Below, in pieces: positions 18,799 to 57,320 of a stretch of DNA of 64,000 bases. The stretch lies in contig NZ_KI913949.1 of assembly GCF_000332095.2 (NCBI RefSeq), positions 1,946,511 through 2,010,510 of the forward strand. The letters run 5' to 3'. Within the stretch, counting starts at the first letter, position 1. Every line of letters starts with the position of its first letter. A program made the translations under genes and the position numbers. The DNA is from Leptolyngbya sp. PCC 6406 (GTDB lineage Bacteria; Cyanobacteriota; Cyanobacteriia; Phormidesmidales; Phormidesmidaceae). The notes beneath the pieces were generated by a model, which worked only from the letters and a program-made list of their open reading frames with translations, made no database searches and had not been told where the DNA came from.

Positions 18799-20754
18799 AT
18801 GCTGGATATTGAATCGAGTATTTATACTCGTCTTGGTGAATCAACAGATTCTGGGCCTTCATCCTCTTTTTTAAGTGCCACAGAACCAGTGATTCTGGAA
18901 TATGAAAATAGCTCAGAAAATTTGTTATTTACTCATCCAGCTATTTCGAGTCTGGATGTAGCTCAGACCCATGCCATTACCGTAGCTATCCCCACCTATA
19001 ATGGAGCCCAGCGATTACCCAGAGTCCTAGACCAGTTGCGATCGCAGATAGACCTTGACAACATTATCTGGGAAGTAATCGTTGCCGATAACAACAGCAC
19101 AGACGAAACGGCCACAGTTGTTCGCACCTACCAACAGGATTGGCCTGCCCACTCCAGCCTCCGCTACTGCTTCGCATCTGAGCAGGGAGCCTCCTTTGCC
19201 CGCCAACGAGCCGTTGAATTGGCCCGTGGTGAGCTGGTAGCCTTTCTAGATGATGACAATATTCCCGATCTGGATTGGGTAAAACAAGCCTACGAATTTG
19301 CCCAAGGTCGCCCAGAGGTAGGAGCCTTTGGTAGCCAGATCCATGGTGAGTTTGAAGGCGAGGTTCCCTCTGAGTTTGGAGAACTTTCATGCTTCCTGGC
19401 GATTACGGAACGGGGAAATGAGCCCCACTACTATGATCCCAAGTCCAAAGTCCTTCCCCCTGGAGCCGGCTTGGTGGTACGTCGGCAAGCTTGGCTGGAT
19501 AATGTACCTAAGCGTCTATTTCTCAATCACAAAGGGAAGGATGCAGGACTAGCCAGTGAAGACCTAGAGGCTATTCTCCATATCCAAAAAGCAGGATGGG
19601 GAATCTGGTACAACCCTACCATGGTGGTCCATCATCAAATTCCCAATGGGCGTCTCAAGCAAGACTATCTGGTCAAACTATTTCGCTGTGTTGGCCTCAG
19701 TCGCTTTTATATCCGCATGCTGGGGGTCAAAGATTGGCAACAGCCCTTATTGGTACCCGCCTATATTGCCAATGATCTGCGGCGGCTCGCCCTACATTGG
19801 CTCAAGCAGCGATCTCACCCTGACGCTCCTTTGGTAGCGGCTTGTAAACAGCAGTATTTGACAAGCACTTTGGCTAGTCCCCTCTTTTTATTGAAGAAAG
19901 CCTCCCAGGATGCTTGGCAACATTTTACGGCTACACCATCGGCAAATCGAGATCTCTGGTTGACGCGCTTGACCCAGGCGTTTGAGCAGGATCAATTCCA
20001 GCTTTATAGTCAATCAGTCATGACGGTGGATGGCAGAGAAACTCCCGCCCAAGCCCAGGCTGAGATCCTGCTGCGGGTAGTCGCCACGACTGATACTGGT
20101 GAGTCTCAACTGCTGCTACCCAGGTATTTCATGGTGGCAGCGACTGAGTTGGGCTTAACTCGCACCCTGGATTATTGGGTGATTCGGAAGTTTTTTTCAA
20201 CCCAGGCAGGGGCATCTACGGCTAGCCTCTGGAAGGCTGAAGACAACCTAGCCAATCCTAGTAGGGTTTACTCCCTAAACCTAACGCCTGCCAGCCTCAG
20301 TGATTCCCGCTTTGCCCCCTTTATTGCGGACCAACTGACCCGTTCAGGTCTACAGCCCAAGACCCTTTGTTTTGAAATTCCAGCAGCAGCGCTTGTAACC
20401 CATTCTCATGCGGCTATTCGACGTATCCATGAGTTGAAAGAATTGGGGTGCCAGATCGTCATTGACGATTGTCTTCAGCCTGCCCACTTGAGACAACTGC
20501 CAACAACGCTCCCCATCGACTACTACAAACTTAGTGGTCAACTGCTCCAATCTAGGAAAGCTCAACCTTCCCATGGTGTTAGCCAGACGCTAACAGGGAT
20601 GACCCAATGGGGGGTGGCCCGTAGCATTCAACCAATCATTAAGGGAGTAGAGACCCTATCCATGCTGCATCAAGTGCAACAGATAGGTATTCCCTACGCT
20701 CAAGGCTATACTTTGGCCAAGCCGCAACCACTCCACCTCGAAGGTCAGGTGTAA
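18799..20754 (+). CDS. HpsE-type family 2 glycosyltransferase fused to an EAL domain
   Basis: A 651-residue two-domain protein. Residues about 55-385 form a GT2 glycosyltransferase of the HpsE type (AITVAIPTYNGAQRLPRVLD, VADNNSTDET, FLDDDNIPDLDWV, GAFGSQIHGEFEG). Residues about 395-648 form an EAL (c-di-GMP phosphodiesterase-like) domain: FQLYSQSV, AEILLRVV (EAL-equivalent EIL), YSLNLTPASL (metal-site Asn), CFEIPAAA, VIDDCLQ (Asp pair), YYKLSG (Lys), IKGVETL, and YAQGYTLAKP. The usual AEGVE reads IKGVE, so one catalytic-region Glu is Lys, and DDFG reads DDCL. The domain may bind c-di-GMP more than cleave it. The next gene, a paralogous HpsE without EAL, starts 2 bp after the stop. Confidence 0.88.
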   Translation: MLDIESSIYTRLGESTDSGPSSSFLSATEPVILEYENSSENLLFTHPAISSLDVAQTHAITVAIPTYNGAQRLPRVLDQLRSQIDLDNIIWEVIVADNNSTDETATVVRTYQQDWPAHSSLRYCFASEQGASFARQRAVELARGELVAFLDDDNIPDLDWVKQAYEFAQGRPEVGAFGSQIHGEFEGEVPSEFGELSCFLAITERGNEPHYYDPKSKVLPPGAGLVVRRQAWLDNVPKRLFLNHKGKDAGLASEDLEAILHIQKAGWGIWYNPTMVVHHQIPNGRLKQDYLVKLFRCVGLSRFYIRMLGVKDWQQPLLVPAYIANDLRRLALHWLKQRSHPDAPLVAACKQQYLTSTLASPLFLLKKASQDAWQHFTATPSANRDLWLTRLTQAFEQDQFQLYSQSVMTVDGRETPAQAQAEILLRVVATTDTGESQLLLPRYFMVAATELGLTRTLDYWVIRKFFSTQAGASTASLWKAEDNLANPSRVYSLNLTPASLSDSRFAPFIADQLTRSGLQPKTLCFEIPAAALVTHSHAAIRRIHELKELGCQIVIDDCLQPAHLRQLPTTLPIDYYKLSGQLLQSRKAQPSHGVSQTLTGMTQWGVARSIQPIIKGVETLSMLHQVQQIGIPYAQGYTLAKPQPLHLEGQV

Positions 20755-20756
20755 GT

Positions 20757-21740
20757 ATGACGGAATTCACAGTAGCGATTCCCACCTTCAATGGAGCTAG
20801 CCGCATTATTCAAGTGCTGGATCGATTGCGATCGCAGCAAGATATCGAGTCTCTACAGTGGACAGTCATTGTGGTAGACAACAACAGCACCGACAACATT
20901 GCTGAGGTTCTGGAAACCTATAACAGCCAACACCCTCTCCCCTACGACCTTATCCACATCATCGAAAAGCAGCAAGGCGCAGCCTTCGCAAGACAAAAAG
21001 CGATCCAGGTTGCCTCCAGTAACTGGGTAGGATTCCTAGATGACGACGTCCTTCCCGCCCCCCACTGGGTCGCAAAGGCCATCGAATTTGCCCAACAAGC
21101 GACAAACATTGCCGTATTTGGGGGACAAATTCACGGCGACTTTGAAGTGTCACCCCCAGAAAATTTTGGCCGGATTCAGTCCTTTCTGGCTATTCGTGAA
21201 CGTGGCAATAGCCCCCATCAATACGATCCCGTTCAGCTTATCCTGCCCCCCTCAGCCGCCTGGGTTGTACATCGTCAAGCATGGTTGGCCGCTGTCCCTC
21301 CCTGCCCTACCCTCAGCGGCAGAGTCAAAGGCTCCATGGTACAAGGGGATGACTATGAGCCTTTGTTGTATCTACATCAAGCTGGTTGGGAAATTTGGTA
21401 CAACCCCACTATGCATGTTCATCATCACATCCCGAGTTGGCGACTAGAGCGAGATTATCTTATGGCTCTAAGTCGTGGCTGTGGTCTCTGTATTTGTAGC
21501 CTACGGATGATGAATACCTCCCTTTGGCAAAAACCCATTGTTTTTGCGAAGATTACTATGGGATCCCTTAAGCGTCTTTGCCGGCATTGGATACAGTATC
21601 GCAAACAAACTAAATTCGACTTAGTTCTCGCCTGTGAGCGAGCCTTTTTCACAAGTAGCTTCTTAAGTTCATTCTATTTTGTTTGGAATAAAATCATGCC
21701 AAAGCAACATCAATTATCAGCCACCAAAAAATCATACTAG
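20757..21740 (+). CDS. hpsE: Hormogonium-polysaccharide-type glycosyltransferase HpsE
   Basis: A 327-residue GT2-family glycosyltransferase with FTVAIPTFNGASRIIQVLD, VVDNNSTDN, GFLDDDVLPAPHWV (nucleotide-sugar DxD region) and IHGDFEVSPPENFGRI, which match the HpsE group of cyanobacterial exopolysaccharide enzymes. It is clearly paralogous to the preceding GT domain, which suggests a local duplication followed by fusion of one copy to EAL. ATG 20757 is 2 bp after the upstream stop, so the two are an operon. The donor and acceptor sugars are unknown. Confidence 0.87.
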   Translation: MTEFTVAIPTFNGASRIIQVLDRLRSQQDIESLQWTVIVVDNNSTDNIAEVLETYNSQHPLPYDLIHIIEKQQGAAFARQKAIQVASSNWVGFLDDDVLPAPHWVAKAIEFAQQATNIAVFGGQIHGDFEVSPPENFGRIQSFLAIRERGNSPHQYDPVQLILPPSAAWVVHRQAWLAAVPPCPTLSGRVKGSMVQGDDYEPLLYLHQAGWEIWYNPTMHVHHHIPSWRLERDYLMALSRGCGLCICSLRMMNTSLWQKPIVFAKITMGSLKRLCRHWIQYRKQTKFDLVLACERAFFTSSFLSSFYFVWNKIMPKQHQLSATKKSY

Positions 21741-21781: not shown

Positions 21782-23458
21782 ATGGGTGAACCGGTTTTAG
21801 CGATTGGCCTAGATGCTGCCGATCCCCAACTCTTAGAAGAGTGGATGGACGCTGGACATTTGCCTAATCTCAATAGAATCAGACAACAAGGGAGCTATGG
21901 TCGCCTTGGTAACACAGTAAATTATAATAACATTCCCACAGAAACGTCATCTACCGAGCGTTTATGGGTCATGTTTAGTACTGGTTGCTTGCCCAATAAG
22001 ACAGGATATTGGAGTCCAGTAAAGTACTCTCCTCAGGATTATAGTGTCGAACATGACACCATCCACGGAGCTTACAACTTCAAGGAATTCTCCCCCTTCT
22101 ATGCTCTAGGTCAAGACTATAGGGTTGCCACCTTTGACATTCCAGTATCTGCTCTTTCCGATAACCTTAATGGTCTTCAAATTTTAGGATGGGGGGGCCA
22201 TGCTCCCCATACGCCCAGTCATTCATTACCAGCAGATTTATTGCCAGACATCATTCAACGCTACGGTAAAAATCCACTGCTGCACCAAGATTATGGCAAC
22301 TGGTGGGATCAGTCCTATCGCGATCGCACTCAAAAAGCTCTCCAGGAAAGTATTACTAAGCGTATTGCAATCTGCAAAGAACTGCTACAGAAAGAAGCTT
22401 GGGATTTGTTTATAGCTGTCTTTGGAGAAACCCATACTGCTGGCCATGACTTCTGGCATCTCAGTCAACCCGACCACCCTCTACATCAAAGACAAGAAGG
22501 GCAGGCAGATCCCCTTTTAGCCACCTTTCAGCAAATCGATCAGGGCATTGGTGAGTTAGAAGCGCTTATTCCCGAATCTGCTCACTTGCTTGTATTTGCT
22601 GTCCATGGCATGGGTAACAATGTCACAGATATGTTCAGTATGACTTTCTTGCCCGAGTTTTTGTACCGATACAACTTTCCTGGTAGTTACGGTCTTGCTC
22701 GTGGCAATGTCAATCGCCAACCCCCAGCGATCAACTTCAAACCCCACCGTAAAAGTTGGTCAGGAGAAGTCTGGCAAAAACGATATGACTCTAATCCCCT
22801 AAAACGTTGGCTGATGCCCTGGATCCCCAGTAAGTTTGATCACTACCTAAAGTCAGACACGACTCCTGAGCTAACGTCGCCCTATATTCTACGCCAACAG
22901 GGAATTGCTCTAAATTGGATGCCAGCCTTGTGGTACAAGAACCTTTGGCCCAAAATGAAGGCATTTGCCTTGCCAGCGTTTGCCGCTGGACATATTCGCA
23001 TTAACTTGAAAAATCGGGATAGCCAAGGAATCGTTCAGCCCCAAGACTATGAAGCTCTATGCAAGGAAATCACAGATCACCTGCACCAGCTTAAAGATGG
23101 CCGCACAGGTCAACCCATTGTCCAGAAAGTCGTTAGAACTCGAAGTTACGAAAATTGTCTGAGTAATGACAGTACCCTACCCGATGCCGACTTAGTGGTG
23201 CTGTGGAGAGATCAACCCAGTGATGTCGTAGATAGCCCGGAATTTGGACGTATTGGGCCACTGACTTATTACCGGACTGGTGGCCATCGTCCCGATGGCT
23301 TTTTGATGATTAAGGGGACAAAGGTCAAAGCAGGGCATAGGTTCGCTAATGCTCAAATTATTGATATTGGCCTAACTATTCAACATCTCCTCAAGGCTAA
23401 AATTAGCTCCACAGTAGATGGAAAATCCCTACTAAAATCCGAGACAAAACCTTGTTAA
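21782..23458 (+). CDS. Type I phosphodiesterase / alkaline-phosphatase-superfamily protein
   Basis: A 558-residue protein of the alkaline phosphatase superfamily (type I phosphodiesterase/nucleotide pyrophosphatase). AIGLDAADPQLLEEWMDAGHLPNLNRI is the metal-binding start, and the likely nucleophile is a Thr/Ser in IPTETSSTERLWVM. Later ligand-like segments are FGETHTAGHDFWH, VFAVHGMGNNVTD and YRTGGHRPDGFLM. No signal peptide is visible, so it may act in the cytoplasm. In this context it could transfer or remove a phosphate-linked substituent on a polysaccharide intermediate; that is inference. ATG 21782 follows the hpsE stop by 41 bp. Confidence 0.82.
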   Translation: MGEPVLAIGLDAADPQLLEEWMDAGHLPNLNRIRQQGSYGRLGNTVNYNNIPTETSSTERLWVMFSTGCLPNKTGYWSPVKYSPQDYSVEHDTIHGAYNFKEFSPFYALGQDYRVATFDIPVSALSDNLNGLQILGWGGHAPHTPSHSLPADLLPDIIQRYGKNPLLHQDYGNWWDQSYRDRTQKALQESITKRIAICKELLQKEAWDLFIAVFGETHTAGHDFWHLSQPDHPLHQRQEGQADPLLATFQQIDQGIGELEALIPESAHLLVFAVHGMGNNVTDMFSMTFLPEFLYRYNFPGSYGLARGNVNRQPPAINFKPHRKSWSGEVWQKRYDSNPLKRWLMPWIPSKFDHYLKSDTTPELTSPYILRQQGIALNWMPALWYKNLWPKMKAFALPAFAAGHIRINLKNRDSQGIVQPQDYEALCKEITDHLHQLKDGRTGQPIVQKVVRTRSYENCLSNDSTLPDADLVVLWRDQPSDVVDSPEFGRIGPLTYYRTGGHRPDGFLMIKGTKVKAGHRFANAQIIDIGLTIQHLLKAKISSTVDGKSLLKSETKPC

Positions 23459-23615
23459 ATACTGCCACCATTAACGCTGACATAACAATCCCATTTGATT
23501 TCCGAAGACCTTCGTAGCGTGGGAGAAGTGAAGCGTAACCCACAGAGAAAGAGGCTTACTGAAGACTCATGCAGGATAGCTATAGCCATTATCACTGAAC
23601 AGGAGAAGCGTCAAG

Positions 23616-24521
23616 ATGCTAGCCAAAATTAAGCAAAAGTTGTATGGATTGTCTAATGACATTTTGTATCGTTTCGATTTAGCCATAAATAGTAAGAATC
23701 TACCTCTGCTTTCCAAGGCTGATCTCAATATAGTTGATCAACTTAAGAAGGAAGGGGTAGTGATGACCTCTTTGGAAGATTTGGCAATTCCTCTGACACC
23801 TCAGCTCAAAAAAGCTGCTAGTTATCTAGTGGAAGATCTAGAGAATAACGGAGTTACTACTCCACCTTCACAAAATAAAAAAGAAGCTTTTAGCCACTCC
23901 TTGCCAATTGATCCCATAAAGATTTCCCAAGAACACCCGGAAATCTTTCTTTGGGGATTGGAAGAACGAATTCTCGATATTCTAGATTATTATATCGGCG
24001 TTCCTAGCGTTTGCCATGGCGTTAATATACGCCGAGATATTGTTGATGGAAAACAAATCGGAACTCGTTACTGGCATATGGATGGAGAGGATCGAAATGT
24101 TGTCAAGATTATTATTTACTTGAGTGATGTGGATCATCACTGTGGGCCATTTGAATATATACCTAAATCCCTTACTCCCTCCTACAAAACCTTTAAGAAT
24201 ATAAATTACACTATCACCAATGAGGATATGGAGAGAGTTATTCCCGCTTCTCAATGGCGACAATGTATAGGTAGAGTGGGCACAGTGATTTTGGTTGATA
24301 CCGGCCAGGTTTTTCATCATGGAAAGATTCCTGAAGCTGCGAGGACAGCTATTTTCTACGGCTATACCTCCCATCGACCTAAACGGCCTGAACTCTGTCA
24401 GTCTTCATCTTTCCGGAAGGGCTTACCCTATTTTACCCACCCTCTTTCTGAAAGACAACGAAAAGCAATATGGCATAGTCAAGATTTACCTTCTAATACG
24501 TTCTACTCAGAAGAATCATAG
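23616..24521 (+). CDS. PhyH-like Fe(II)/2-oxoglutarate dioxygenase
   Basis: A 301-residue protein with the facial triad of phytanoyl-CoA dioxygenase-like enzymes: RYWHMDGED (HxD), and FHHGKIPEAARTAIFYGY with the distal His and the 2-oxoglutarate-binding Arg. The family hydroxylates diverse small molecules or sugar derivatives; the substrate here is unknown. AGGAGAAG before ATG 23616 is a good ribosome site. Codon use and base composition are AT-rich, as in the following two genes and unlike the flanks, suggesting acquisition. Confidence 0.82.
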   Translation: MLAKIKQKLYGLSNDILYRFDLAINSKNLPLLSKADLNIVDQLKKEGVVMTSLEDLAIPLTPQLKKAASYLVEDLENNGVTTPPSQNKKEAFSHSLPIDPIKISQEHPEIFLWGLEERILDILDYYIGVPSVCHGVNIRRDIVDGKQIGTRYWHMDGEDRNVVKIIIYLSDVDHHCGPFEYIPKSLTPSYKTFKNINYTITNEDMERVIPASQWRQCIGRVGTVILVDTGQVFHHGKIPEAARTAIFYGYTSHRPKRPELCQSSSFRKGLPYFTHPLSERQRKAIWHSQDLPSNTFYSEES

Positions 24522-24606
24522 TTTCCAACGGATTAAGCTAAGAAATCAGTATCCAAGTCGTTGATCTCTTCAAAAACAACAACTATTACCCACAGACAAA
24601 TTTACA

Positions 24607-27600
24607 ATGGTTCATCAACAAAGCTTGAAATCCGATCAACTTACTAAAACTACAAAGCCTAGCCAATCGACACCTGCACTAGCAATCGCTAGTACTTTCA
24701 CTATTGAACCGATCAGGAATTCTCTCAATTTTTGGATCGAGGAATTATCTCTATCTCTAAAGATCAGTTTTAGTGGGTACAACCAGATTTTTCAGGAGCT
24801 AATCGATCCGAATAGTTTATTCTCTAAAAATGCTCATGGTTGCAACGTTATTTTAATTCGTCTGGAAGATTGGCTCAGAGATCATTCGAATTCTGACATT
24901 GACATCATAGAGGAAGATCTTAAACGCAACATTGATGATTTGTCAGCAGCCTTGGTTTCGTCTTCTAGCCGGTGTCAGGCTCCACATATTGTCATATTTT
25001 GCCCTCATACTCCCTTTGGAGAAGCCAGAAATTCTGAAAGTATAAATTTGCTAAATAATATATCCTTTTTGGCAATTGAAAGGATTAAGTCTATTGATGG
25101 TATCTATGTCATCACAGCCACCAACATTCATCACTGGTATCCATGTGTCAATTATTATAATCGCCGCACAGACGAATTAGGACACATCCCCTTTACCCCA
25201 GAGTATTTCTCTGCCTTAGGCACCACAATTATTCGCAAATATCAATCTCTAACCTGTAGTCCCTACAAGGTAATTGTGCTTGACTGCGATCAAACTCTAT
25301 GGAAAGGAGTTTGTGGAGAAGATGGGCCTCAAGGTATTGTCATCGATCCAGCGCGTCAATTTCTCCAAGAATTCATGGTCAAACAGACAGAACAAGGAAT
25401 GTTGATCAGCCTATGCAGTAAAAATGTAGAGGAAGATGTTATTCGAGTTTATGATGTTCGCTCAGATATGCCTTTGCAAAGAGAGCATATCGTAGCCTGG
25501 CGAATTAACTGGCAACCTAAATCAGAAAATATCAGATCTCTAGCGCAAGAACTGAATTTAGGACTCGATAGTTTTATTTTTATCGATGATAATCCAGTGG
25601 AATGCTCGGAGGTAATGGCTAACTGTCCTGAAGTATTAACCCTACAGTTACCTCAGAAAATTGATGAAATCCCCAATTTCTTAGAGCATGTCTGGGCTTT
25701 TGATCATTCCAAGGTGGCTACAGGAGCTGATTTGCAGCGAACCTTAATGTACAAACAAAATCTAGAACGTGAGCGTGTTCGTAGCCAAGCTTTGGATTTT
25801 GAAGAATTTCTAAATGGTTTGGATCTCCAGGTTTCGATCTTGCCAATGAAACCTAATCAACTTGTTAGAGTGGCTCAGTTAACGCAACGCACTAACCAGT
25901 TCAACGCTACAACTATTCGACGCTCCGAATCCACAATTCAACAGCTTTGTGCCCAAGGAGGGTATCAATTCTTGACAGTGGATGTTAAAGATCGCTTTGG
26001 AGATTATGGCTTAGTTGGTACTGTGATTTATGGAATTCAGAATAGCAGTTTGGAAGTTGATACCTTTCTGCTAAGTTGTCGTGTCCTTGGGCGAAGTGTT
26101 GAATATCGAATGCTAGCTGAACTGGGAAGAATTGCCCTTGAACAAAACCTTGATAGAGTTAATATACCCTATATTTATTCTGCCAAAAATCAACCTCTAA
26201 TAGATTTTCTAAACAAAATTGGTGGGGAATTTTCTCTGTCGACATCCCAGGGAATAATTTTTAGCTTTCCCGCAGACTATGCCAGATCGATAAAATTAAC
26301 TTCTGATGATGATCAACCTATTATAAAGACGAGTAAAGAGTCGCAATCAGAATCCTCTGTCACGCTAAAAGCAGAGGATAGTGAATCTAATCCTATGGAT
26401 AAAATCTCACCATCCTCTCATATTGATAAGATTAGCGCTATCGATAGAGTGGCTAATTGTCTATCCCAACTAGAAGCCATCCATGCTGCGGTTGAGAAGT
26501 ATCGCAAAGGGTTATGCCTACAATCTCGCCAACAAAAAGATCCACCTCGTAATCAGGTTGAGAGCGCACTAGTGGAAATATGGGGAAAGGTTCTTGGTCT
26601 TGAGCAAGTTGGCATTCATGAAGATTACTTTGATATTGGAGGAGATTCATTGCTGGCTGTCAGTTTATTTGTGGAGATCGAGGATGCTTTTCAAAAAAAG
26701 CTTCCCATGACGGTGTTATTAGAATCTCCTACCATAGAGAAACTTGGTAGAAAGATCCTGGAAACAGAGACTATCCAAACATCCTGGCCATCTCTCATTA
26801 AACTAAGATCGAATGGTACTGGCCCCTCTCTTTTCATGGTTCACGGCGGTTTTGGTGATGTACTTGGGCTAGTTACCTTGGAAAAGCATTTGGATACTAA
26901 TTATTCTTTCTACGCTTTACAGGGTATTGGGCTAGATGGCATTCAGAACTTGCCCCCATCTATTGAAGCAATAGCTAGCTGCTTCATTGACGAGATTAAA
27001 TTGGTACAGCCTCAAGGCCCTTATTTTCTGGGAGGCCAGTGCTCAGGGGGTACTATCGCCTATGAGATGGCTCAACAGCTTCAACAAGGAGGAGATCACG
27101 TTGAATTTTTAGCCCTCTTAGATACCCCTTATCCTCCATTGACAAATTACTTTGCTGAGCGCCTCCGCTTTTATCAAAGTAATCGGCCTCTACTTTATCA
27201 ACCTAGTCAAGCCTTATACTATGTCTTCACCTGCTTTAACCTGCGTTGGAAGGTGGCTTACCATATACGACAGTTTCAAAGGAGGAGCTTGAAAGAAAAG
27301 CGAGAATATCTATATAGTTATGGTCAGCGTTTTGTTAAAGTTTTAATCAAGAAAATGCACTTACCACTTCTCAATAAAAAGAGAGATCCCCATCCCTTTC
27401 CCGTGCAAAACAATTTGGCTATGGGAGATAGCGAGGCAACAGTTCCATCACTAGGGTCTACAGTACAGACGAACTCCGATTCAGAGATCAATACAATTTC
27501 TGGTTCTTCCCTCTTCCCTCGCCATAGTTCAGATCGAAAACACGCCCTTATAAAGCATCGTTTTTTTGAGGATTTGAATCAGGCGCTATCGATTTACAAG

Positions 27601-27882
27601 CCTAAGCCCTATGATGGTAAAATAGCCTACTTCCTACCTTTATTAAATAGCTATGCAGCAACATGTTCTCCTAAGAATTGGCGAGCTTTCTTTCCCCATG
27701 ATAAACCTGTGTCAGCTTTCCCAAGTTTAAGCTTGGGTTGGGATAAAGTGGCGAAAAAAGGACTGGAAATACACGAGTTTGAGGGCACTCATATTGGCAT
27801 GATTCGCGAACCACAGGTGAAATTATTGGCGGAGAAGATCAACTCCTGTCTAAATTTGGATGCGACAGAGTTATTTGATTAA
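24607..27882 (+). CDS. FkbH-like HAD phosphatase - acyl carrier - thioesterase trifunctional protein
   Basis: A 1091-residue assembly-line protein. Residues about 1-215 form an N-terminal region usual for long FkbH proteins; residues about 220-560 are HAD-IIIC/FkbH (VIVLDCDQTLWKGVCGEDG, LISLCSKN, FIFIDDNPVECSEV, FGDYGLVGTVIY). FkbH enzymes load a glyceryl unit from 1,3-bisphosphoglycerate onto a carrier protein. A carrier domain follows at about 645-715 (FDIGGDSLLAVSL, phosphopantetheine Ser), then an alpha/beta thioesterase at about 735-1085: FMVHGGFGDV, nucleophile elbow GGQCSGG with Cys in the nucleophile place, and EGTHIGMI with the likely His. A glyceryl group could thus be made, held and passed on by one protein. 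AT-rich; no HIP1 site within it. Confidence 0.88.
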   Translation: MVHQQSLKSDQLTKTTKPSQSTPALAIASTFTIEPIRNSLNFWIEELSLSLKISFSGYNQIFQELIDPNSLFSKNAHGCNVILIRLEDWLRDHSNSDIDIIEEDLKRNIDDLSAALVSSSSRCQAPHIVIFCPHTPFGEARNSESINLLNNISFLAIERIKSIDGIYVITATNIHHWYPCVNYYNRRTDELGHIPFTPEYFSALGTTIIRKYQSLTCSPYKVIVLDCDQTLWKGVCGEDGPQGIVIDPARQFLQEFMVKQTEQGMLISLCSKNVEEDVIRVYDVRSDMPLQREHIVAWRINWQPKSENIRSLAQELNLGLDSFIFIDDNPVECSEVMANCPEVLTLQLPQKIDEIPNFLEHVWAFDHSKVATGADLQRTLMYKQNLERERVRSQALDFEEFLNGLDLQVSILPMKPNQLVRVAQLTQRTNQFNATTIRRSESTIQQLCAQGGYQFLTVDVKDRFGDYGLVGTVIYGIQNSSLEVDTFLLSCRVLGRSVEYRMLAELGRIALEQNLDRVNIPYIYSAKNQPLIDFLNKIGGEFSLSTSQGIIFSFPADYARSIKLTSDDDQPIIKTSKESQSESSVTLKAEDSESNPMDKISPSSHIDKISAIDRVANCLSQLEAIHAAVEKYRKGLCLQSRQQKDPPRNQVESALVEIWGKVLGLEQVGIHEDYFDIGGDSLLAVSLFVEIEDAFQKKLPMTVLLESPTIEKLGRKILETETIQTSWPSLIKLRSNGTGPSLFMVHGGFGDVLGLVTLEKHLDTNYSFYALQGIGLDGIQNLPPSIEAIASCFIDEIKLVQPQGPYFLGGQCSGGTIAYEMAQQLQQGGDHVEFLALLDTPYPPLTNYFAERLRFYQSNRPLLYQPSQALYYVFTCFNLRWKVAYHIRQFQRRSLKEKREYLYSYGQRFVKVLIKKMHLPLLNKKRDPHPFPVQNNLAMGDSEATVPSLGSTVQTNSDSEINTISGSSLFPRHSSDRKHALIKHRFFEDLNQALSIYKPKPYDGKIAYFLPLLNSYAATCSPKNWRAFFPHDKPVSAFPSLSLGWDKVAKKGLEIHEFEGTHIGMIREPQVKLLAEKINSCLNLDATELFD

Positions 27883-28249
27883 TTAAAGAATGATGTCATT
27901 GCACCAAGTTTTGTGTTTTTCCAGCTTTACTAAAAACTCGAATAGGAGACATAAAGATTGAAATTTAGTTGTAGGGTACTTCCTTTCTGGGTGAGGTGCA
28001 GTCTATTCCCTGAAATAAAGGTTTTTAGAACTTGTTTTACACCTCAAGTATAGAGGCTTAGTAATGCAGGAAAATCCTGAAAGCTTTGATATATAAGAGA
28101 TTTTATGAAACAACGATTTCTGAGATGTGTCCATATATGGGTACTGAATCAGCGAATCCAGGGCATTTCAGCGTTCGCTTCTGCATATCACATCGTCTCA
28201 TTATAGACGCGCTTGAGTTTTCTGTACTACTCGGAGATAGAGGCCATCT
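27883..28249. other. AT-rich intergenic region
   Basis: 367 bp without a supported gene. Small open frames on both strands have no protein-like features. A weak hairpin (AGGAAAATCCT near 28069) is the only structure I noticed. Confidence 0.4.
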
Positions 28250-29017
28250 ATGTTTGTTTTTATTATTCCTTTTAGAAGTCAATATACAACTGACAACTGG
28301 TCTCAAGCTTGTGCTTTTCTACAGCGTACATTGACTTCAATCTGCAATCAAACAGATCAGGACTTTAAGGTTTTAGTGGTTTGCAGTGAGATTCCTGATG
28401 GAGTAATAAAAAATCCTAAAATAGACTTTATTAGATCTACTCTTCCTATTCCAAACAGCTTTCAGGAAAAATGCAAGGATTCCAAGATTAAGACTCGTAT
28501 TGGCATTTTCTATGCTCAGTATCTCAATCCAAGTTTTGTCATGAGTGTTGATGCGGATGACTTAGTGAGCAATAGATTAGTAGAGTATACAAAGAAAAAT
28601 TTTAAGGGTCAAGGGTTATTTTTCGACAAAGGTTATTTATACGTTGAGGGAGAAAATAAGGTCTTCTTGAAAAGAAAAGATTTTTATAAATGGTGTGGAA
28701 CCTGTAATATTTTTAGATTTGGAATCTTTGATATCCCTGAGAGTACTGAATTCAATTATTTTTCTGAAGAAGTTATGGCTAATACCTATTGCCTCCACCA
28801 TAGTACCGCCCCTAAGTTACTCATGGAAAAAGGTATGTCAATGGAACCCCTCCCGTTTCCAGGGGCAATTTATTCTATTGATAATGGCATCAATGTCAGC
28901 TCAGCAAGCAAGAAAAAACTGGCCGTCAATAATCCATTAAGGCTCATTAAAAGGGTGCTAGTAAATTACAGATTTCTGACACATTCTATTAGAGATGAAT
29001 TTGGTATTTGGAACTGA
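28250..29017 (+). CDS. Glycosyltransferase-like protein (GT-A fold)
   Basis: A 255-residue protein beginning MFVFIIPFRSQYTTDNWSQA, with RTLTSICNQTDQDFKVLVVCSE and MSVDADDLVSNRLVEY. This matches a GT-A glycosyltransferase N-terminus and its DxD (here DADD) metal/nucleotide-sugar site. The family is the short GT2-like group that often sits in polysaccharide clusters. AT-rich like its upstream neighbours and separated from the FkbH gene by a 367-bp gap. Donor and acceptor unknown. Confidence 0.75.
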   Translation: MFVFIIPFRSQYTTDNWSQACAFLQRTLTSICNQTDQDFKVLVVCSEIPDGVIKNPKIDFIRSTLPIPNSFQEKCKDSKIKTRIGIFYAQYLNPSFVMSVDADDLVSNRLVEYTKKNFKGQGLFFDKGYLYVEGENKVFLKRKDFYKWCGTCNIFRFGIFDIPESTEFNYFSEEVMANTYCLHHSTAPKLLMEKGMSMEPLPFPGAIYSIDNGINVSSASKKKLAVNNPLRLIKRVLVNYRFLTHSIRDEFGIWN

Positions 29018-29117
29018 AGGCACCAATTTCTATTCTTGATTTTTGAAGATAGGACAGGAATTTTGATCTATCCAAAATCCATCCAATCAAGATACCTGGT
29101 CCATGGATCTTAATGCT

Positions 29118-29804
29118 TCACGAAGGAGTGCTGGAGGTAGTAATATATTGTTGAACTTCGTAGTAACAGACGTGACAAAAATATAGGGCGAGGTTAGATG
29201 ATCCGAAAATTTTTGTTGCATCTTCCAGCATAATGGGTAGTCCTCTACCAGTCATAGGATAGGAGTCAGCTAGCCCTGAAATCAGAAAGAATACACCTGA
29301 GATACATAGAATGGCATAGGGTGTTCGCTTGATCTCTCGACGAAAGTAATAAATGAATAGGAAGGCTAGGATGGCATAGGTGGAGTATACTAAAATTTTG
29401 GGGATGCCCAGATAAATGGATAGCATGAGCTTAAATCTAAACGCTTCATCTAGTAGTACTGCACCCAGCAAGACACCGGGATAGAGGAGAAAATAACGCT
29501 CACTTAATCTTTTATGGATCGTTTTTACCTTGATTAAGGTGAAGCTAAAAAGGCATATAAATGAGGCGGCGGACCAAAGCAGAATGGATAAGCCGGGGAA
29601 GATGCCAATCTGAGGACTTCGAGCACTGAAAGGCTGCTCGAAAGCTCTTAATATGTAGTTAGCCCCAGCGATATGGGCAGAAGTTCCTACAATTCTAGAG
29701 AATAGAATATAAGCCGCTATCCCTGAAAATATTATTAGTAGTAAGACATTTGCAGTTAAGAAATATCGATATTTTTTGAAGAGAGTCTGGACGGAAATCG
29801 TCAT
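29118..29804 (-). CDS. Multi-pass membrane protein of unknown function
   Basis: A 228-residue protein with about six hydrophobic segments (FLTANVLLLIIFSGIAAYILF, IGIFPGLSILLWSAASFICLFSF, YFLLYPGVLLGAVLLDEAF, ILVYSTYAILAFLFIYYF, YAILCISGVFFLISGLA, and LALYFCHVCYY near the end). I do not recognise the family. AT-rich, like the glycosyltransferase gene it faces tail-to-tail, so it may belong to the same acquired segment. Confidence 0.6.
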   Translation of the reverse strand: MTISVQTLFKKYRYFLTANVLLLIIFSGIAAYILFSRIVGTSAHIAGANYILRAFEQPFSARSPQIGIFPGLSILLWSAASFICLFSFTLIKVKTIHKRLSERYFLLYPGVLLGAVLLDEAFRFKLMLSIYLGIPKILVYSTYAILAFLFIYYFRREIKRTPYAILCISGVFFLISGLADSYPMTGRGLPIMLEDATKIFGSSNLALYFCHVCYYEVQQYITTSSTPS

Positions 29805-29874
29805 CGTTCAATTAGCCGAGAGATGGTTCTGCTATTGTAATTCCTTTAGGATGGAGGAGTGTTAATACAGAGGG

Positions 29875-30639
29875 ATGATGGACTGGCGAGAGGTAACGGG
29901 AAACTGGCTGTGGGTACCGCCCCAGCCGAAGGCAATTGTCCATTTCTTGGGGGGGGCATTTGTGGCATCGGCTCCCCACTTGACCTATCGCCTGCTGTTG
30001 GAGGCGCTGGGTCGGCAGGGATATCTGATTGTGGCGACGCCCTTTGTGAATACCTTTGACCATCGTGCGATCGCGCACGAGGTGGCGATTACCTTCGAGC
30101 AAGCGCTGTATTATTTGCAGAATCGGGGCTTTTCGCCGCGATCGCTACCCATCTACGGACTCGGTCATAGTATGGGGGGGAAGATTCATCTACTCCTGAG
30201 CAGTTTAGGGAGGCTAGAGCGAGCCGGTAACGTGCTGATGGCCTTTAACAACTATTCTGCCCGCCGCTCGATTCCGTTGCTAGAGCAGTTCACGTCTTTC
30301 TCGCCCCAGTTCAGAGAGATGGAGTTTACCCCTTCTCCGGCGGAGACCTTGGCGCTGGTGCGCGATCGCTATTCTGTTCGCCGCAACCTACTGATTAAAT
30401 TCAGCCGTGACGACATTGACGAAACTCGTGTCCTGGGGACGGTGTTGATGGACAAATTTCCCCAGTTGACGACGATTGAGCGCCTCCCTGGTACCCACAC
30501 CACACCCCTAGCCCAAGCGGTGCCTTGGCAACCCGGCAGTAGCTTCACCGCCTTGGATGCCCTAGGTCAGTTTGTGCAGCAAGAATTCAACCGAGATATG
30601 ACTCGACTGCGGGATCAAATCCTGTTGTGGCTGACTTGA
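29875..30639 (+). CDS. DUF1350-family alpha/beta-hydrolase-like protein
   Basis: A 254-residue protein of the DUF1350 family kept in cyanobacteria and chloroplasts. IVHFLGGAFVASAPHLTYR near the N-terminus and YGLGHSMGGKIHLLL (a GxSxG-like elbow) are the marks; VLMAFNNYSARRSIP follows. A hydrolase fold is likely, the activity is unknown. Two tandem ATGs (29875 and 29878) are possible starts. HIP1 sites resume at this gene (30068), marking the end of the AT-rich segment. Confidence 0.85.
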   Translation: MMDWREVTGNWLWVPPQPKAIVHFLGGAFVASAPHLTYRLLLEALGRQGYLIVATPFVNTFDHRAIAHEVAITFEQALYYLQNRGFSPRSLPIYGLGHSMGGKIHLLLSSLGRLERAGNVLMAFNNYSARRSIPLLEQFTSFSPQFREMEFTPSPAETLALVRDRYSVRRNLLIKFSRDDIDETRVLGTVLMDKFPQLTTIERLPGTHTTPLAQAVPWQPGSSFTALDALGQFVQQEFNRDMTRLRDQILLWLT

Positions 30640-33308: not shown

Positions 33309-33398
33309 CATATGTTGGGCCTGAAAACCTCGGAGGTCTTTGACAGGACTTATTACAATGACCCCAGAAGCAGTTGCAGTTGCATGGAGGGTCTCACT

Positions 33399-34571
33399 AT
33401 GGCAGAAAATTTACTCACCCAACTCCGGACGATGACCGTCGTTGTGGCCGATACGGGGGATTTGCAGGCGATCGAAACCTTCACTCCCCAAGATGCGACG
33501 ACGAACCCGTCCCTGATTACCGCTGCGGCTCAGATGCCCCAGTACCAAGACATTGTGGATGAAACCCTGATCAAAGCCCGTCAGGATGCGGGGTCTGGGG
33601 TATCGGATAAGGATGTGGCCAATATTGCCTTTACCCGGCTGGCGGTGGCCTTTGGGCTCAAGATTCTCAAGATTGTGCCGGGGCGGGTGTCTACGGAGGT
33701 GGATGCGCGGTTGTCCTACGACACAGAGGCGACGATTGCGACGGCCCGTGACATTATTGCCCAGTATGAGGCGGCGGGGGTGGGGCGCGATCGCGTTTTG
33801 ATCAAGATCGCCTCCACCTGGGAAGGTATCCGCGCTGCGGAAGTGTTGGAAAAGGAAGGCATCCACTGTAACCTCACTCTGCTGTTTGGCCTGCACCAGG
33901 CCATTGCCTGTGCTGAAGCTGGGGTGACCCTCATTTCCCCCTTTGTGGGCCGCATCCTCGACTGGTATAAGCAGGAAACCGGACGGGACTATGCCCCCAC
34001 CGAGGATCCGGGGGTGCTGTCGGTGACGGAGATTTACAACTACTACAAGAAATTTGGCTACGCCACTGAGGTGATGGGGGCCAGCTTCCGCAACATTGGC
34101 GAAATTCGGGAGTTGGCGGGCTGTGATCTGCTGACGATTTCCCCTAAGCTTCTGGCCCAACTGGAATCCGTCGAAGAACCCCTGCCCCGCAAGTTGGATG
34201 CCGCTAAGGCCGTCAATCTGGATATTGAGCCCATCCCCATGGATCAGGCCACCTTTGAGCGGATGCATGGGGAGGATGCCATGGCCTCGGCCAAGCTGGA
34301 TGAGGGCATCAAGGGCTTTAGCAAGGCTCTGGAAACCCTGGAAAAGCTCTTGGCGGAGCGCCTGTGCAAGCGTCTGGAGGGCAAGGATTTTGTCACCCAT
34401 GCGGCGGCGGATCTGTTCCACGCCTACGACTTGGATGGCGATGGCTTCATCACCCGCGAGGAGTGGCTGGGTACCGATGCGGTATTTGATGCCCTGGATG
34501 CGGACCACGATGGCAAAGTTACCCCTCAAGAAGTGAGTGCGGGCCTCGGCGGCGCATTTCAAACAGTGTAG
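33399..34571 (+). CDS. tal: Transaldolase with C-terminal EF-hand pair
   Basis: A 390-residue transaldolase of the pentose phosphate pathway (moves dihydroxyacetone between sugar phosphates). [20 protein letters not shown] (Schiff-base Lys), and [29 protein letters not shown] are intact in the barrel; a tail at about 345-388 adds two EF-hand loops ([26 protein letters not shown]), an arrangement known in cyanobacterial transaldolases. I start at ATG 33399 (MAENLLTQL); upstream in-frame codons from 33312 overlap the terminator repeat and look non-coding. A Ca2+ role is suggested by the loops only. Confidence 0.95.
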
Positions 34572-45701: not shown

Positions 45702-46703
45702 TCACTTCAAGATGAGGGGGGGGTATTGATCGGTTTCGGCCATGAGGTATTTGGCGAGGAGTCGGGTTTGGATTTCAAAGGCTTCCTGGTAGGTGCATTG
45801 GCGACCCATGACGGGATGCTTGAATTTGGATTGCTTTTTCTGTTCATAGAGCCGGAGAAACTTACGACGGCCTTCGTCGGTGAGGGATACCGCGTGGCTG
45901 ATGGGTTCTGGGGTGAAATCTTCTAAACTCAACGCTTTGCGGTTGAGGGCGGCTAGCACCATGGCATCAACCACCAAGGGACGGAATTCTTCCATCAAGT
46001 CGAGGGCGAGGGAAGGGCGACCATAGCGCTGGGTGTGGAGATAGCCCAGATAGGGATCAAAGCCGACGATGTTGAGGGCTCCCTGAACATCGTGGCGCAG
46101 CAGGGCATAGCCAAAACTGAGCAGAGCATTGACGGGGTCGGTGGGGGGACGACGGCAGCGGGTGGTGAAACTAAAGTCGTCGTTGCGGATCAGGCGACCA
46201 AAGTGACCGAAGTAGGCGGCGCTGCCTGCCCCTTCAAGTCCGCGTAGGGCATCGATGATGGCGGTTTGATTGATGGGTTGGATGGCCTGCTCTAGACGGG
46301 TAATGCCGGGTTCTAGGTCGGTGATGCCCTCTCGTTGCGATCGCATCAGTAGGGTGCGGTAGTTCTTCAGCTTGCCGCGAATGAAACCCTGTACAGCGTG
46401 GATAGAACGCTCGGTTTCCCCAGCGGCCTGCCACTGGGCCGATCGCACAAAAATATTTTTGTTCAACTCCGGCTCTAGCCGCCCTAAAAATCGCCCGGTA
46501 CCAGTCATAAAGCTGAGGGGAATTTTGCGCTCTAGCAGTTCAATCAAGGCGGCGGGAGAGACAGTAGCCCGACCGAGTACCACCACCCCATCGACCTTGA
46601 TCAAAGGGACATCGAGCAGCGTTTCTTTTTGGGCGCGCACGCGGAGGCGTTCGTCGGTTTTGCCGATGAAGGCATCGTCGGTTGAAATGTAAATTGTTCC
46701 CAT
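45702..46703 (-). CDS. cas1: CRISPR integrase Cas1 (type I-D)
   Basis: A 333-residue Cas1 metal-dependent integrase. IYISTDDAFIGKTDERLRV opens the beta-rich N-terminal domain; the active-site Glu is in the ALRGLEGAGSAAYFG region, with a His in GYALLRHDVQGALN and an acidic patch in DLMEEFRPLVVDAMVLAALN. I start at ATG 46703 (MGTIYIST). The frame is also open upstream to 46928 through a G-rich tandem repeat, but the extra N-terminus would be repetitive and starts inside cas4, so I reject it. Confidence 0.97.
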   Translation of the reverse strand: MGTIYISTDDAFIGKTDERLRVRAQKETLLDVPLIKVDGVVVLGRATVSPAALIELLERKIPLSFMTGTGRFLGRLEPELNKNIFVRSAQWQAAGETERSIHAVQGFIRGKLKNYRTLLMRSQREGITDLEPGITRLEQAIQPINQTAIIDALRGLEGAGSAAYFGHFGRLIRNDDFSFTTRCRRPPTDPVNALLSFGYALLRHDVQGALNIVGFDPYLGYLHTQRYGRPSLALDLMEEFRPLVVDAMVLAALNRKALSLEDFTPEPISHAVSLTDEGRRKFLRLYEQKKQSKFKHPVMGRQCTYQEAFEIQTRLLAKYLMAETDQYPPLILK

Positions 46704-46902
46704 GGTGGTTGTTAGGTGATAGGGAGGGGAGGAGTAGGGGAGTGATGGAGGGGGGGAGTAGGGGAGTGATGGAGGGGGGGAGTGATGGAGTAGGGGAGGG
46801 GGGGAGTGATGGAGTAGGGGAGTGATGGAGTAGGGGAGTGATGGAGTAGGGGAGGGGGGGAGTTCCTCCAACACCCCAACACCCCAACACCCCATCACCC
46901 CA
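46704..46902. repeat. G-rich tandem repeat between cas4 and cas1
   Basis: About 170 bp of imperfect units (GGGGGAGTGATGGAGTAGGG type), then TGTTGGGGTGTTGGGGTG on the minus strand close to the cas4 stop. It belongs to the same G-rich microsatellite class as 163-326 and 9629-9679. It keeps the cas1 frame open on the minus strand and should be slippery. Confidence 0.85.
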
Positions 46903-47493
46903 TCACCCGCTTTCTCGATACTGTCCAACCTTCTTCGCCGCCTGGGGTAGGCATTGCGAGTAGAGGCTACAGCCTCGGCAGCGTTGGGTGTAGATGGGTG
47001 GGGGCATGTGTCCGGTGTGGAGCAGGGTGCGGACGGCGGTAAGAGTTGCGATCGCGCTTTCCCTCAGCTCAGGAGTGATTTCCACAGGTTGACGCTGGTG
47101 GGACTGGGCGTAGTAGATAAAGCCTTGGGTCACGGTACGTCCCGTCATGTCCTCCAGGCAGAGGGCTTGGGCGCAAACTTGCAGCTCATCATTGTCGAAC
47201 TCCCCCCGGTGACCGCGCTTGTACTCGACGGGGTAGAGCTGGCCATCGCTTTCTTCGATCAGGTCAGATTTGCCGATCAGACCATAGCGATCGCTGTGGA
47301 GCCAGATCGCCCGCACCTGCCAAGTATCATCCCGGTGATTGCTGCCCAAAGTGTGAACGCGATCGTGCAGACCCGTGCCTTCAAGGGTGTACTGGTTATC
47401 ACTAAACTCGCCCGCACAGAACATACGCCAACAGCGGTGGGGGCAGTAGGCGTATTGGTTGAGAGCGGCGATGGAGATGTAATCTTTGGACAT
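46903..47493 (-). CDS. cas4: CRISPR Cas4 nuclease (RecB-like, Fe-S)
   Basis: A 196-residue Cas4. The Fe-S cluster ligands are seen as NQYAYCPHRC near the N-terminus and RCRGCSLYSQC at the C-terminus. The RecB-type nuclease core is GKSDLIEESDGQLYPVEYKRG (acidic residue and ExK). It trims pre-spacers and helps choose the PAM in type I-D adaptation. The stop sits at the edge of the tandem repeat to its left. Confidence 0.96.
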   Translation of the reverse strand: MSKDYISIAALNQYAYCPHRCWRMFCAGEFSDNQYTLEGTGLHDRVHTLGSNHRDDTWQVRAIWLHSDRYGLIGKSDLIEESDGQLYPVEYKRGHRGEFDNDELQVCAQALCLEDMTGRTVTQGFIYYAQSHQRQPVEITPELRESAIATLTAVRTLLHTGHMPPPIYTQRCRGCSLYSQCLPQAAKKVGQYRESG

Positions 47494-47511
47494 ACTTGTT
47501 CAGGGGGAGGG

Positions 47512-48022
47512 TTTTTGAGTTTTGAGTTTTGAGTTTTGAGTTTTGAGTTCTTAGTTTTGAGTTGGGGGATGGGAATGCTTAGTTTTGAGTTCTTGGTTTT
47601 GAATTGTGAGCGGTTGCAGTGGGGGGAATAGGTTGGAATGGCTGAGAGTGTTATTCAGAAAAAGAGTTTTGAGTTTGCATTGAGAATTATTTGTCTTTAT
47701 AAAAAATTGCAATCTCAAAAAGAATTTGTGCTTTCTAAGCAACTATTAAGAAGTGGAACTAGCATTGGGGCAAATGTCGAGGAAGCGACTGCTGCCCAGA
47801 GTCGTAGGGATTTCTTGTCCAAAATGTCAGTTGCTTCTAAGGAAGCCAGAGAAACTAAATATTGGTTGAGATTACTGCAAGAATCAGATCTGGCATCTAT
47901 CGATTTCCAGTCAGAAATATCCCAAGTAGATGAACTTATTCGGATATTGACTGCAATCGTCAAAACTACCAAAACCACTTCGTAGTCCAAAACTCAAAAC
48001 TAAACATTCAAAACTCAAAACT
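47512..48022. mobile_element. IVS-like element: four-helix-bundle gene flanked by inverted TTTTGAG repeats (copy B)
   Basis: About 510 bp between cas4 and cas6. The left flank has tandem TTTTGAGTTTTGAG units (47514-47606) and the right flank has AACTCAAAACTAAACATTC plus AAAACTCAAAACTATC (47997-48023). The latter is, on the opposite strand, identical over about 29 nt to the left end of the insertion in cas6. In 23S rRNA, intervening sequences (IVS) are known elements with inverted ends that encode the same protein family. Here the element lies outside rRNA, inside a cas operon. Confidence 0.6.
47638..47985 (+). CDS. Four-helix-bundle protein (23S rRNA-IVS protein family)
   Basis: A 115-residue protein of the PF05635 type: VIQKKSFEFALRIICLYKKL, LLRSGTSIGANVEEATAAQS, SKMSVASKEARETKYWLRLL, and VDELIRILTAIVKTTK. 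The pattern of four amphipathic helices is characteristic. It is the only + strand gene in the cas operon and sits between inverted repeats, so it is an insertion. The family includes Avd of diversity-generating retroelements, but no reverse transcriptase, TR or VR is visible near it. The molecular role is unknown; members bind nucleic acid and pentamerise. Confidence 0.85.
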   Translation: MAESVIQKKSFEFALRIICLYKKLQSQKEFVLSKQLLRSGTSIGANVEEATAAQSRRDFLSKMSVASKEARETKYWLRLLQESDLASIDFQSEISQVDELIRILTAIVKTTKTTS

Positions 48023-48935: not shown

Positions 48936-49326
48936 GGCGATCGCCTAATAACTCAGCAATGTGACAAATAAAGGCTTCGACGGCTGGGAGTAAAGGCTCA
49001 ACTTGCTCCCGCTCAAACTCTAGGAAGTCTAGATAGTCAGCTTCCTGACGACGCTCAAACAAGTCGTTGTATAAGCGGGCCAAGTCTTTAGAAACCAGAC
49101 CCGGCCTGACATATTCACGGTTGAAAATGCCTCGAACACCAGAATGTTTGGAAGCTGACAGGTTGTCTTTGGCAATCAAGGCGGATACCGCATAGAAGCA
49201 ACTGTATTAAAGCCGATTCATACAGGCATTCCATCGCTCGGCTTGGGCTAATACCTGGGCATCAACTAACGTGGCCTGAGCACGCTGAATGCGATAAGTT
49301 GCTAATTCGTTAGAACCGTGACTCAC
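48925..49326 (-). pseudogene. HEPN-domain toxin gene interrupted by a single nonsense codon
   Basis: A GTG start at 49326 overlaps the MNT stop (GTGA). The frame reads YRIQRAQATLVDAQVLAQ, NACMNRL, then TAA at 49209-49207, then YSCFYAVSALIAKDNL, SASKHSGVRGIFNREYV and a normal HEPN tail ending at 48925. The expected residue at the stop is Tyr (RLYYSCFYA), so one T-to-A change would explain it. Frame and sequence on both sides are otherwise intact, so the change looks recent. A sequencing error or strain-specific mutation must be excluded. The 3' end overlaps cas6. Confidence 0.85.
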
Positions 49327-49634
49327 AGCATAATTCCGTCTTTTTGTACGAACTGGTAAAAGGCGCTCGCTTGATAACGTGGTGTTTGCCATTCCATGCG
49401 ATTACGTATAATCGAAGTGAGGACTTCACCGATATCCCACTCCAGTTCGTAAAGGGCATGGCGGAGGTGATCTGTTCGTTTAGCATCTACTGGGCCATCC
49501 AGTAAAACAAGGAAATCCCAGTCAGACTCTGGGGTAGCATCACCGCGAGCACGGGAACCATAAAGAATGATTTCGGCTTCGGGCTCTATCTGGTGAATGA
49601 TTTGTTTGACTTGGTCAAGAATAGGGTTTTTCAT
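49323..49634 (-). CDS. MNT-type minimal nucleotidyltransferase (antitoxin partner of the HEPN gene)
   Basis: A 103-residue minimal nucleotidyltransferase. IILYGSRARGDATPES is followed by DWDFLVL, which gives the GSx10DxD catalytic motif; a further Asp/Glu follows in ELEWDIGEVL. MNT antitoxins of this class modify a HEPN toxin by adding AMP units. It precedes and overlaps the HEPN gene, and lies 35 bp after csc1, inside the cas operon. Confidence 0.88.
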   Translation of the reverse strand: MKNPILDQVKQIIHQIEPEAEIILYGSRARGDATPESDWDFLVLLDGPVDAKRTDHLRHALYELEWDIGEVLTSIIRNRMEWQTPRYQASAFYQFVQKDGIML

Positions 49635-49669
49635 GACTTTTCCCTAGATGGGTTCTTGGGCTGTTATGA

Positions 49670-50383: not shown

Positions 50384-50387
50384 GGTT

Positions 50388-57316: not shown

Positions 57317-57320
57317 CTTC

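Follow-up and report, generated by a model that had tools for sequence, protein, structure and literature searches.

An FkbH-acyl carrier protein-thioesterase in a variable slot of an HpsE-type locus of Leptolyngbya sp. PCC 6406 and its candidate role in glycan acylation

The locus and its genes

The window analyzed here is a 64,000-nucleotide stretch of the cyanobacterium Leptolyngbya sp. PCC 6406 (C1:1946511-2010510 of the 5.78 Mb genome) and contains a gene whose product carries an FkbH domain, an acyl carrier protein (ACP), and a thioesterase (TE) on a single chain. This FkbH-ACP-TE gene lies in a row of plus-strand genes that opens with two glycosyltransferases (GTs) of the HpsE family, the first of them fused to an EAL domain (HpsE-EAL) and the second called HpsE2 here, and continues with a phosphodiesterase-like gene (PDE), a PhyH-like oxygenase, FkbH-ACP-TE itself, and a small GT before a presumed membrane protein gene on the opposite strand (Table 1). 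A preliminary description of this DNA had reported a HIP1-free and AT-rich island with glycan genes; the stretch and its genes are indeed as described, and the two HpsE genes directly upstream (18799-21740), which were absent from that description, set the context of the locus.

Table 1. Genes at the FkbH-ACP-TE locus (positions in the window)
Gene	Position	Strand	Part of locus	Basis
HpsE-family glycosyltransferase with EAL fusion (HpsE-EAL)	18799..20754	+	backbone	NF038302, 444.7 bits (cut-off 300); EAL PF00563
HpsE-family glycosyltransferase (HpsE2)	20757..21740	+	backbone	NF038302, 454.3 bits (cut-off 300); follows HpsE-EAL in relatives
Type I phosphodiesterase/alkaline-phosphatase-like (PDE)	21782..23458	+	backbone	PF01663
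PhyH-like 2-oxoglutarate/Fe(II) oxygenase	23616..24521	+	cassette	Pfam matches of relatives, invariant residues, model
FkbH-ACP-thioesterase, 1091 aa	24607..27882	+	cassette	TIGR01686, PF00550, PF00975
Putative glycosyltransferase, 255 aa	28250..29017	+	cassette	weak PF11316 match (E 0.0051, below cut-off)
Hydrophobic, presumed membrane protein	29118..29804	-	backbone	no Pfam family
DUF1350 gene	29875..30639	+	right flank, outside the system	PF07082

The window contains 55 copies of the HIP1 motif (GCGATCGC) versus 0.82 expected from shuffles, none of them between 22328 and 30066. A gap as long as this one arises in 4.5% of 20,000 random placements of 55 sites, and the second-longest gap in the window measures 5.7 kb, so that the missing HIP1 sites alone are weak, borderline evidence (P 0.045) and base composition is the stronger sign. 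The HIP1-free stretch has 41.2% GC versus a median of 54.2% for windows of equal size, at most 0.3 points above the window's minimum, and GC at third codon positions (GC3) is 0.33 to 0.41 in the oxygenase, FkbH-ACP-TE, small GT, and membrane genes versus ca. 0.58 to 0.73 in most other genes tested, with exceptions of 0.445 and 0.46 near 56 to 57 kb. Codon usage, GC, and GC3 concur in marking these four genes as atypical. The right edge is abrupt, from 41% GC in the membrane gene to 56% in the DUF1350 gene, where GC and GC3 are normal. The left edge is graded (50.5% GC in HpsE-EAL, 48.4% in HpsE2, 46.0% in PDE, and 40.0% in the oxygenase gene), and the left coordinate of the gap merely marks the last HIP1 site, within the PDE gene. 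We found no family of direct repeats of at least 16 bp between 21500 and 31000 and no tRNA gene in the whole window, and promoter and terminator scans of the locus performed no better than shuffles.

A shared backbone with a variable cassette

The AT-rich stretch is composite rather than a single block. Relatives share a backbone made up of HpsE-EAL, HpsE2, PDE, and the membrane gene, and the variable part (23616-29017) comprises the oxygenase, FkbH-ACP-TE, and the small GT. In genome G019, the four backbone genes have the order and strands seen in the window with the cassette absent, and PDE and the membrane gene are spaced by 138 bp compared to 5,659 bp in the window. We therefore reject a single inserted island, and the comparison with a strain lacking it, which the preliminary description had suggested as a check, speaks against that unit. 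What stands of the island is the patchy FkbH-ACP-TE gene of the cassette, which is present in 4 of the 62 other genomes of the family and thus not part of a block common to all close relatives.

Good homologs of PDE adjoin HpsE genes in five genomes (G009, G010, G013, G019, and G457). For the membrane gene, 10 of the 62 other genomes in the family have a homolog (E<=1e-20); five of these hold it in one locus with an HpsE gene (G005, G015, G018, G019, and G456), while several others have it on short contigs. At least 17 of the 63 genomes in the family have the HpsE-EAL fusion at full length, that of PCC 6406 among them. By eye, the EAL motifs of this fusion look degenerate, with DDCLQP at a place where DDFGTG is expected, and HpsE-EAL could perhaps be a c-di-GMP sensor that controls polysaccharide synthesis. 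Around the DUF1350 gene of six relatives, the genes of the AT-rich stretch were absent in every case.

Other acylation genes are found at corresponding places. PDE is followed by a hexapeptide acyltransferase in G009, and the HpsE loci of G018 and G025 contain a protein of 1737 or 1751 residues with a fatty acyl-AMP ligase, a ketoreductase, an ACP, and a TE (FAAL-KR-ACP-TE), which adjoins the membrane gene in G018. FkbH-ACP-TE itself lies in HpsE loci of G005, ca. 8 to 15 kb from the GTs of that locus and with transposase-like genes in between, and of G033, where it adjoins a GT and is split by a scaffold gap that leaves its N-terminal part elsewhere, near the membrane gene. G456 and G015 carry Acyl_transf_3 genes (L229:7423-8484 and L230:13341-14408) close to the membrane gene and HpsE, a sign that acylation genes recur in these loci.

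Domain architecture of FkbH-ACP-TE

The three domains span residues ca. 221 to 543 (FkbH), 654 to 715 (ACP, with Ser681), and ca. 741 to 1083 (TE, with Cys812), and both enzymatic domains score far above their cut-offs (289.9 versus a curated 146.65 bits for TIGR01686; 71.5 versus 26.4 bits for PF00975). The FkbH domain retains intact HAD motifs (LDCDQTLW at 225-232, CSKN at 270-273, K305, and D327-D328), and we take DxDxT, CSKN, the lysine of the PKS motif, and the DD pair to be catalytic. These motifs and the ACP serine are intact in 15 of 15 aligned proteins from the 17 genomes that carry FkbH-ACP-TE. In the TE, the nucleophile motif reads GQCSG, with Cys812 in place of the serine of GxSxG; the same 15 proteins and a homolog from the planctomycete Aquisphaera also have a cysteine there. 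The remaining triad residues, D839 and H1062, are invariant among four sequences and, as D120 and H343, also in an alignment of seven TEs. Two FkbH-ACP-TE proteins (L314:8165-11086 and L315:8903-11809) keep the cysteine and lack the aspartate and histidine at the usual columns. The genome's own NRPS (non-ribosomal peptide synthetase) TE has the motif GHCFGG.

Recurrence beside glycosyltransferases

TIGR01686 matches at E<=1e-30 occur in 45 of the 388 genomes of the class, for which we fetched the neighborhoods of open frames of ca. 950 to 1330 residues and of family members; the remainder, opened only in part, are mostly long frames of NRPS or polyketide synthase (PKS) type and short stand-alone FkbH proteins. 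FkbH-ACP-TE is present in 17 cyanobacterial genomes of five families, namely f1 (G000, G005, G006, G029, and G033), f3 (G037, G459, and G472), f24 (G543, G531, G510, and G470), f10 (G044), and f15 (G625, G556, G518, and G483), while candidates from G032, G316, and G633 were discarded due to a different N-terminal half and no ACP-TE part.

A GT is found in the same locus in 13 of these 17 genomes. Nine have a rhamnosyltransferase-like GT2 as the next gene, at a distance of 4 to 132 bp and 66% to 99% identical to that of G037, and four have another GT (G000, G005, G029, and G033), which in G029 is a GT-like open frame (E 1e-6) adjoining FkbH-ACP-TE on a 7.4-kb contig. In G518, FkbH-ACP-TE lies 120 bp from a contig end. 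Further genes point the same way in their content, with rmlC and rmlD after FkbH-ACP-TE in G044 and an O-antigen-ligase-like gene in the G556 locus (E 8.6e-7, just below the Pfam cut-off). In G037, a phosphopantetheinyl transferase (PPTase) gene precedes FkbH-ACP-TE and has homologs in G459 and G472; the trio of PPTase, FkbH-ACP-TE, and GT2 in these three f3 genomes (L253:7578-13087, L326, and L325) lies near a gene that we take, from its sequence, to be ruvX-like. The same neighbor is seen in two f24 genomes (L316 and L321), which suggests an old vertical inheritance of the unit.

Outside the cyanobacteria, a 1003-residue protein annotated as "HAD-IIIC family phosphatase" on plasmid pOJF2_1 of Aquisphaera giovannonii is likewise an FkbH-ACP-TE (with Pfam matches for ACP and TE; 40.8% match to residues 1-843) and lies between GTs in an exopolysaccharide locus with a tyrosine autokinase, an exosortase, rfbC, and a sugar transferase. 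It is the best of 65 matching plasmid records, of which the first two were opened; the second (Niallia) is unannotated. The linkage of FkbH-ACP-TE to glycan genes, which the preliminary description had proposed from the window alone, is thus a wide one, and the finding is stronger than before because the protein recurs beside GTs in five cyanobacterial families and, in a second phylum, within an exopolysaccharide locus.

A profile of the window's TE has full-length matches in 7 of the 388 class genomes (497 to 602 bits, the next match scoring 172 bits). In a tree of 43 rows, these seven TEs group in a single clade (99/100, and 98% of bootstrap trees), five of them following FkbH and two following FAAL-KR, and six of them are recovered as a clade in a second tree (100/100). 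The FAAL-KR pair is nested within the clade, and the TE has thus stayed while the loader changed. TEs of the other FkbH-ACP-TE group form a separate clade (100/100). In the FkbH tree, the domains from FkbH-ACP-TE proteins are not monophyletic: those of the window's family cluster with two NRPS FkbH domains (88/94), and those of the other group stand separately (88/88). As judged from these trees, FkbH-ACP-TE has two origins with unrelated TE lineages that both use a cysteine nucleophile, which is based mainly on the TE trees because support in the FkbH tree is moderate.

The oxygenase

The oxygenase itself has no Pfam match at E<=0.1, and three of nine members of its family match PhyH (best E 0.00044), relatives matching PhyH or 2OG-FeII_Oxy_3. 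H154, D156, H234, and R243 are invariant in the alignment, and a structural model (pLDDT 82) has a 2-oxoglutarate oxygenase fold with 8xpf as its best match (Z 21.4, 236 aligned residues, root-mean-square deviation 4.6) and the aminoglycoside dioxygenase KanJ among the others (Z 17.9); by sequence, a search of solved structures gave chance-level rows only. Homologs with 31% to 43% identity occur in 11 of the 62 other family genomes, of which none adjoins FkbH-ACP-TE and two (G019 and G438) are surrounded by glycan-like genes according to sequence starts; seven of the 11 loci were fetched with wide flanks. The oxygenase is thus not a fixed partner of FkbH-ACP-TE, since no homolog adjoins any other FkbH-ACP-TE examined, and neither the previously suggested hydroxylated glyceryl, with this enzyme as hydroxylase, nor a phospho-linked one finds support. 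With its fold and metal ligands, the oxygenase may act on the sugar. Homologs of the cassette GT are found in 19 of 385 other genomes of the phylum, and a sequence search of solved structures returned no relative of the membrane protein.

A candidate route to glyceryl esters on a glycan

On balance, we consider it slightly more likely than not, from domain content and gene neighborhoods, that FkbH-ACP-TE works as a thiotemplate module in an HpsE-type polysaccharide locus and attaches a glyceryl or other hydroxyacyl group to a glycan as an ester. The FkbH domain would take D-1,3-bisphosphoglycerate, strip its phosphate, and load the glyceryl group onto the phosphopantetheine arm at Ser681 of the ACP; the TE would receive it on Cys812 and pass it to a sugar hydroxyl. 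In the cytoplasm, the repeat unit or the polymer would thereby gain a glyceryl ester. Modifying or adding the acceptor sugar would fall to the oxygenase and the small GT, and FAAL-KR-ACP-TE in the corresponding slot of other loci would, judging from its domain order, provide another hydroxyacyl group. The neighboring genes, the cysteine, and the absence of chain-extending domains suggest that a sugar hydroxyl is where the TE would deliver the group.

Several points weigh against this proposal. We infer the activity, its substrate and acceptor, the sequence of the steps, and the ester as product, and an AlphaFold2 model of the 1091-residue protein from a four-row alignment reached a pLDDT of 47.8, too poor for a fold search. 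The cysteine nucleophile is a common option and not specific or a proof, because, of 33 ACP-TE proteins that are more distant and have a readable motif, 12 share it. No GT was seen near FkbH-ACP-TE in 3 of the 17 genomes (G006, G470, and G483), with the G006 gene located near allophycocyanin-like and chlorophyll antenna genes outside any glycan locus, and no PhyH homolog lies beside another FkbH-ACP-TE in the loci examined. Finally, HpsE-like genes are numerous per genome, so the polysaccharide concerned is not fixed.

Among other explanations, a small-molecule pathway, in which FkbH-ACP-TE and the GT would make a soluble or lipid-bound glyceryl glycoside (an osmolyte, glycolipid, or signal), is unlikely in our view yet the most serious. 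The f3 and f24 units fit it as clusters of two or three genes near the ruvX-like gene (FkbH-ACP-TE with GT2, plus PPTase in f3) and without a full polysaccharide locus, but glycan loci hold FkbH-ACP-TE in the window, in G005, G033, G625, and G556, and in Aquisphaera. We consider it very improbable that the cassette is a laterally acquired and now functionless addition to a polysaccharide locus with drifting composition: GC3 far below that of the other genes and the patchy distribution would be expected from such a history, but all catalytic motifs that we looked at are intact and the genes are open and collinear.

Equally improbable is a role as a detached loading module supplying a distant NRPS or PKS with glyceryl, the TE then being an editing enzyme. 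The genome does have a PKS/NRPS cluster at C1:3.255-3.275 Mb, and FkbH domains in starter modules of cyanobacterial NRPSs are known from suomilide, varlaxin, and dysinosin, as far as the excerpts consulted describe them. However, 1.29 Mb separate this cluster from the FkbH-ACP-TE gene, the ACP-TE at its end is a different one, FkbH-ACP-TE recurs without adjacent NRPS or PKS genes, and with a TE fused to it the module would be unlikely to hand its acyl group to another line. The FkbH domain is a single copy in the genome. An adjacent NRPS or PKS line, which according to the preliminary description would have explained FkbH, was not found in the window with ketosynthase (KS), condensation (C) domain, and FAAL queries at E<=1e-5, nor in the ten larger open frames scanned to the right of the AT-rich stretch; likewise, KS or C-domain matches were absent from the FkbH-ACP-TE loci searched. 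The earlier remark that FkbH is unusual in such a setting therefore holds with regard to the missing assembly line and not as a one-off, given its recurrence. FkbH was not found in three genomes of the same genus (61% to 87% complete).

Returning to glycan acylation, we propose only tentatively, with slightly less than even confidence, a general class of modules in which a cysteine thioesterase acting as acyltransferase would be the constant part, behind a loader that can be exchanged (FkbH where glyceryl is used, FAAL-KR where it is some other hydroxyacyl group). Such modules would occupy a variable slot in polysaccharide loci of cyanobacteria, and an independent second lineage would exist in other cyanobacteria and in exopolysaccharide clusters of planctomycetes. 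If so, a change of loader would give the cell's coat a different acyl decoration.

Relation to known systems

Carrier proteins that bring small acyl groups to glycan polymers have a precedent in the Dlt system for D-alanylation of teichoic acids, though Dlt uses an adenylating ligase, a separate carrier, and a membrane acyltransferase, unlike the module described here. The glyceryl chemistry of FkbH is itself already known: its conversion of 1,3-bisphosphoglycerate to glyceryl-ACP is accepted or proposed for tetronates and NRPS lines in the consulted excerpts of PMC7489565, PMC8949500, and PMC13122637. The FkbH enzymes of tetronate, vioprolide, cystomanamide, suomilide, varlaxin, and dysinosin pathways share with the window protein the FkbH-ACP pair and, by analogy with what these excerpts describe, 1,3-bisphosphoglycerate as its presumed substrate, and most FkbH domains embedded in cyanobacterial NRPSs or PKSs are ca. 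55% to 62% identical to that of the window. Unlike these lines, the window protein has no KS or C domain nearby, has its own TE, and lies in a glycan locus. BF1531 of Bacteroides fragilis (PDB 3slr) matches by sequence (profile positions 51-365, E 1.7e-31), but its chain of 387 residues leaves no room for an ACP and a TE; it is listed as uncharacterized, and nothing on it was found in open-licence PMC.

Like the window TE, the NRPS thioesterases SulM and ObiF1 have a cysteine in the nucleophile motif, though they close beta-lactam or beta-lactone rings whereas a sugar is the presumed acceptor in our case. A C2818S variant of SulM rapidly hydrolyzes its product according to excerpts of PMC11298585, and by analogy the cysteine suggests a preference for transfer over water. 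The likeness to hormogonium polysaccharide (HPS) loci is through HpsE, with two equivalog matches in the window (Table 1) and multiple copies in this genome. Open-licence PMC contained nothing on FkbH with polysaccharide glyceryl, exopolysaccharide, or lipopolysaccharide as judged by title and abstract, and nothing useful on glyceric acid in cyanobacterial polysaccharides among the 12 titles listed; the consulted papers that mention cyanobacterial FkbH together with glycosyltransferases describe NRPS systems.

If glycan acylation by FkbH-ACP-TE is true, carrier-protein chemistry of the antibiotic type also decorates bacterial surface polysaccharides, and FkbH-ACP-TE beside a GT would serve as a short gene test that predicts glyceryl or hydroxyacyl esters. 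A concrete substituent would be useful, as the composition of HPS, a motility polysaccharide, is stated to be unresolved in the excerpts of PMC12188702. For genome miners, an FkbH-ACP-TE match need not mean a polyketide or peptide.

Other features of the window

Further right in the window, a transaldolase with C-terminal EF-hands is encoded at 33312-34571, and a type I-D CRISPR-Cas locus with Cas1, Cas6, Csc2, Cas10d/Csc3, and a Cas3-like helicase spans 45702-59955. By this locus lies a further low-GC patch (55944-57535) with two genes of 44.7% to 46.1% GC, one of which encodes a DUF433/nucleotidyltransferase protein.

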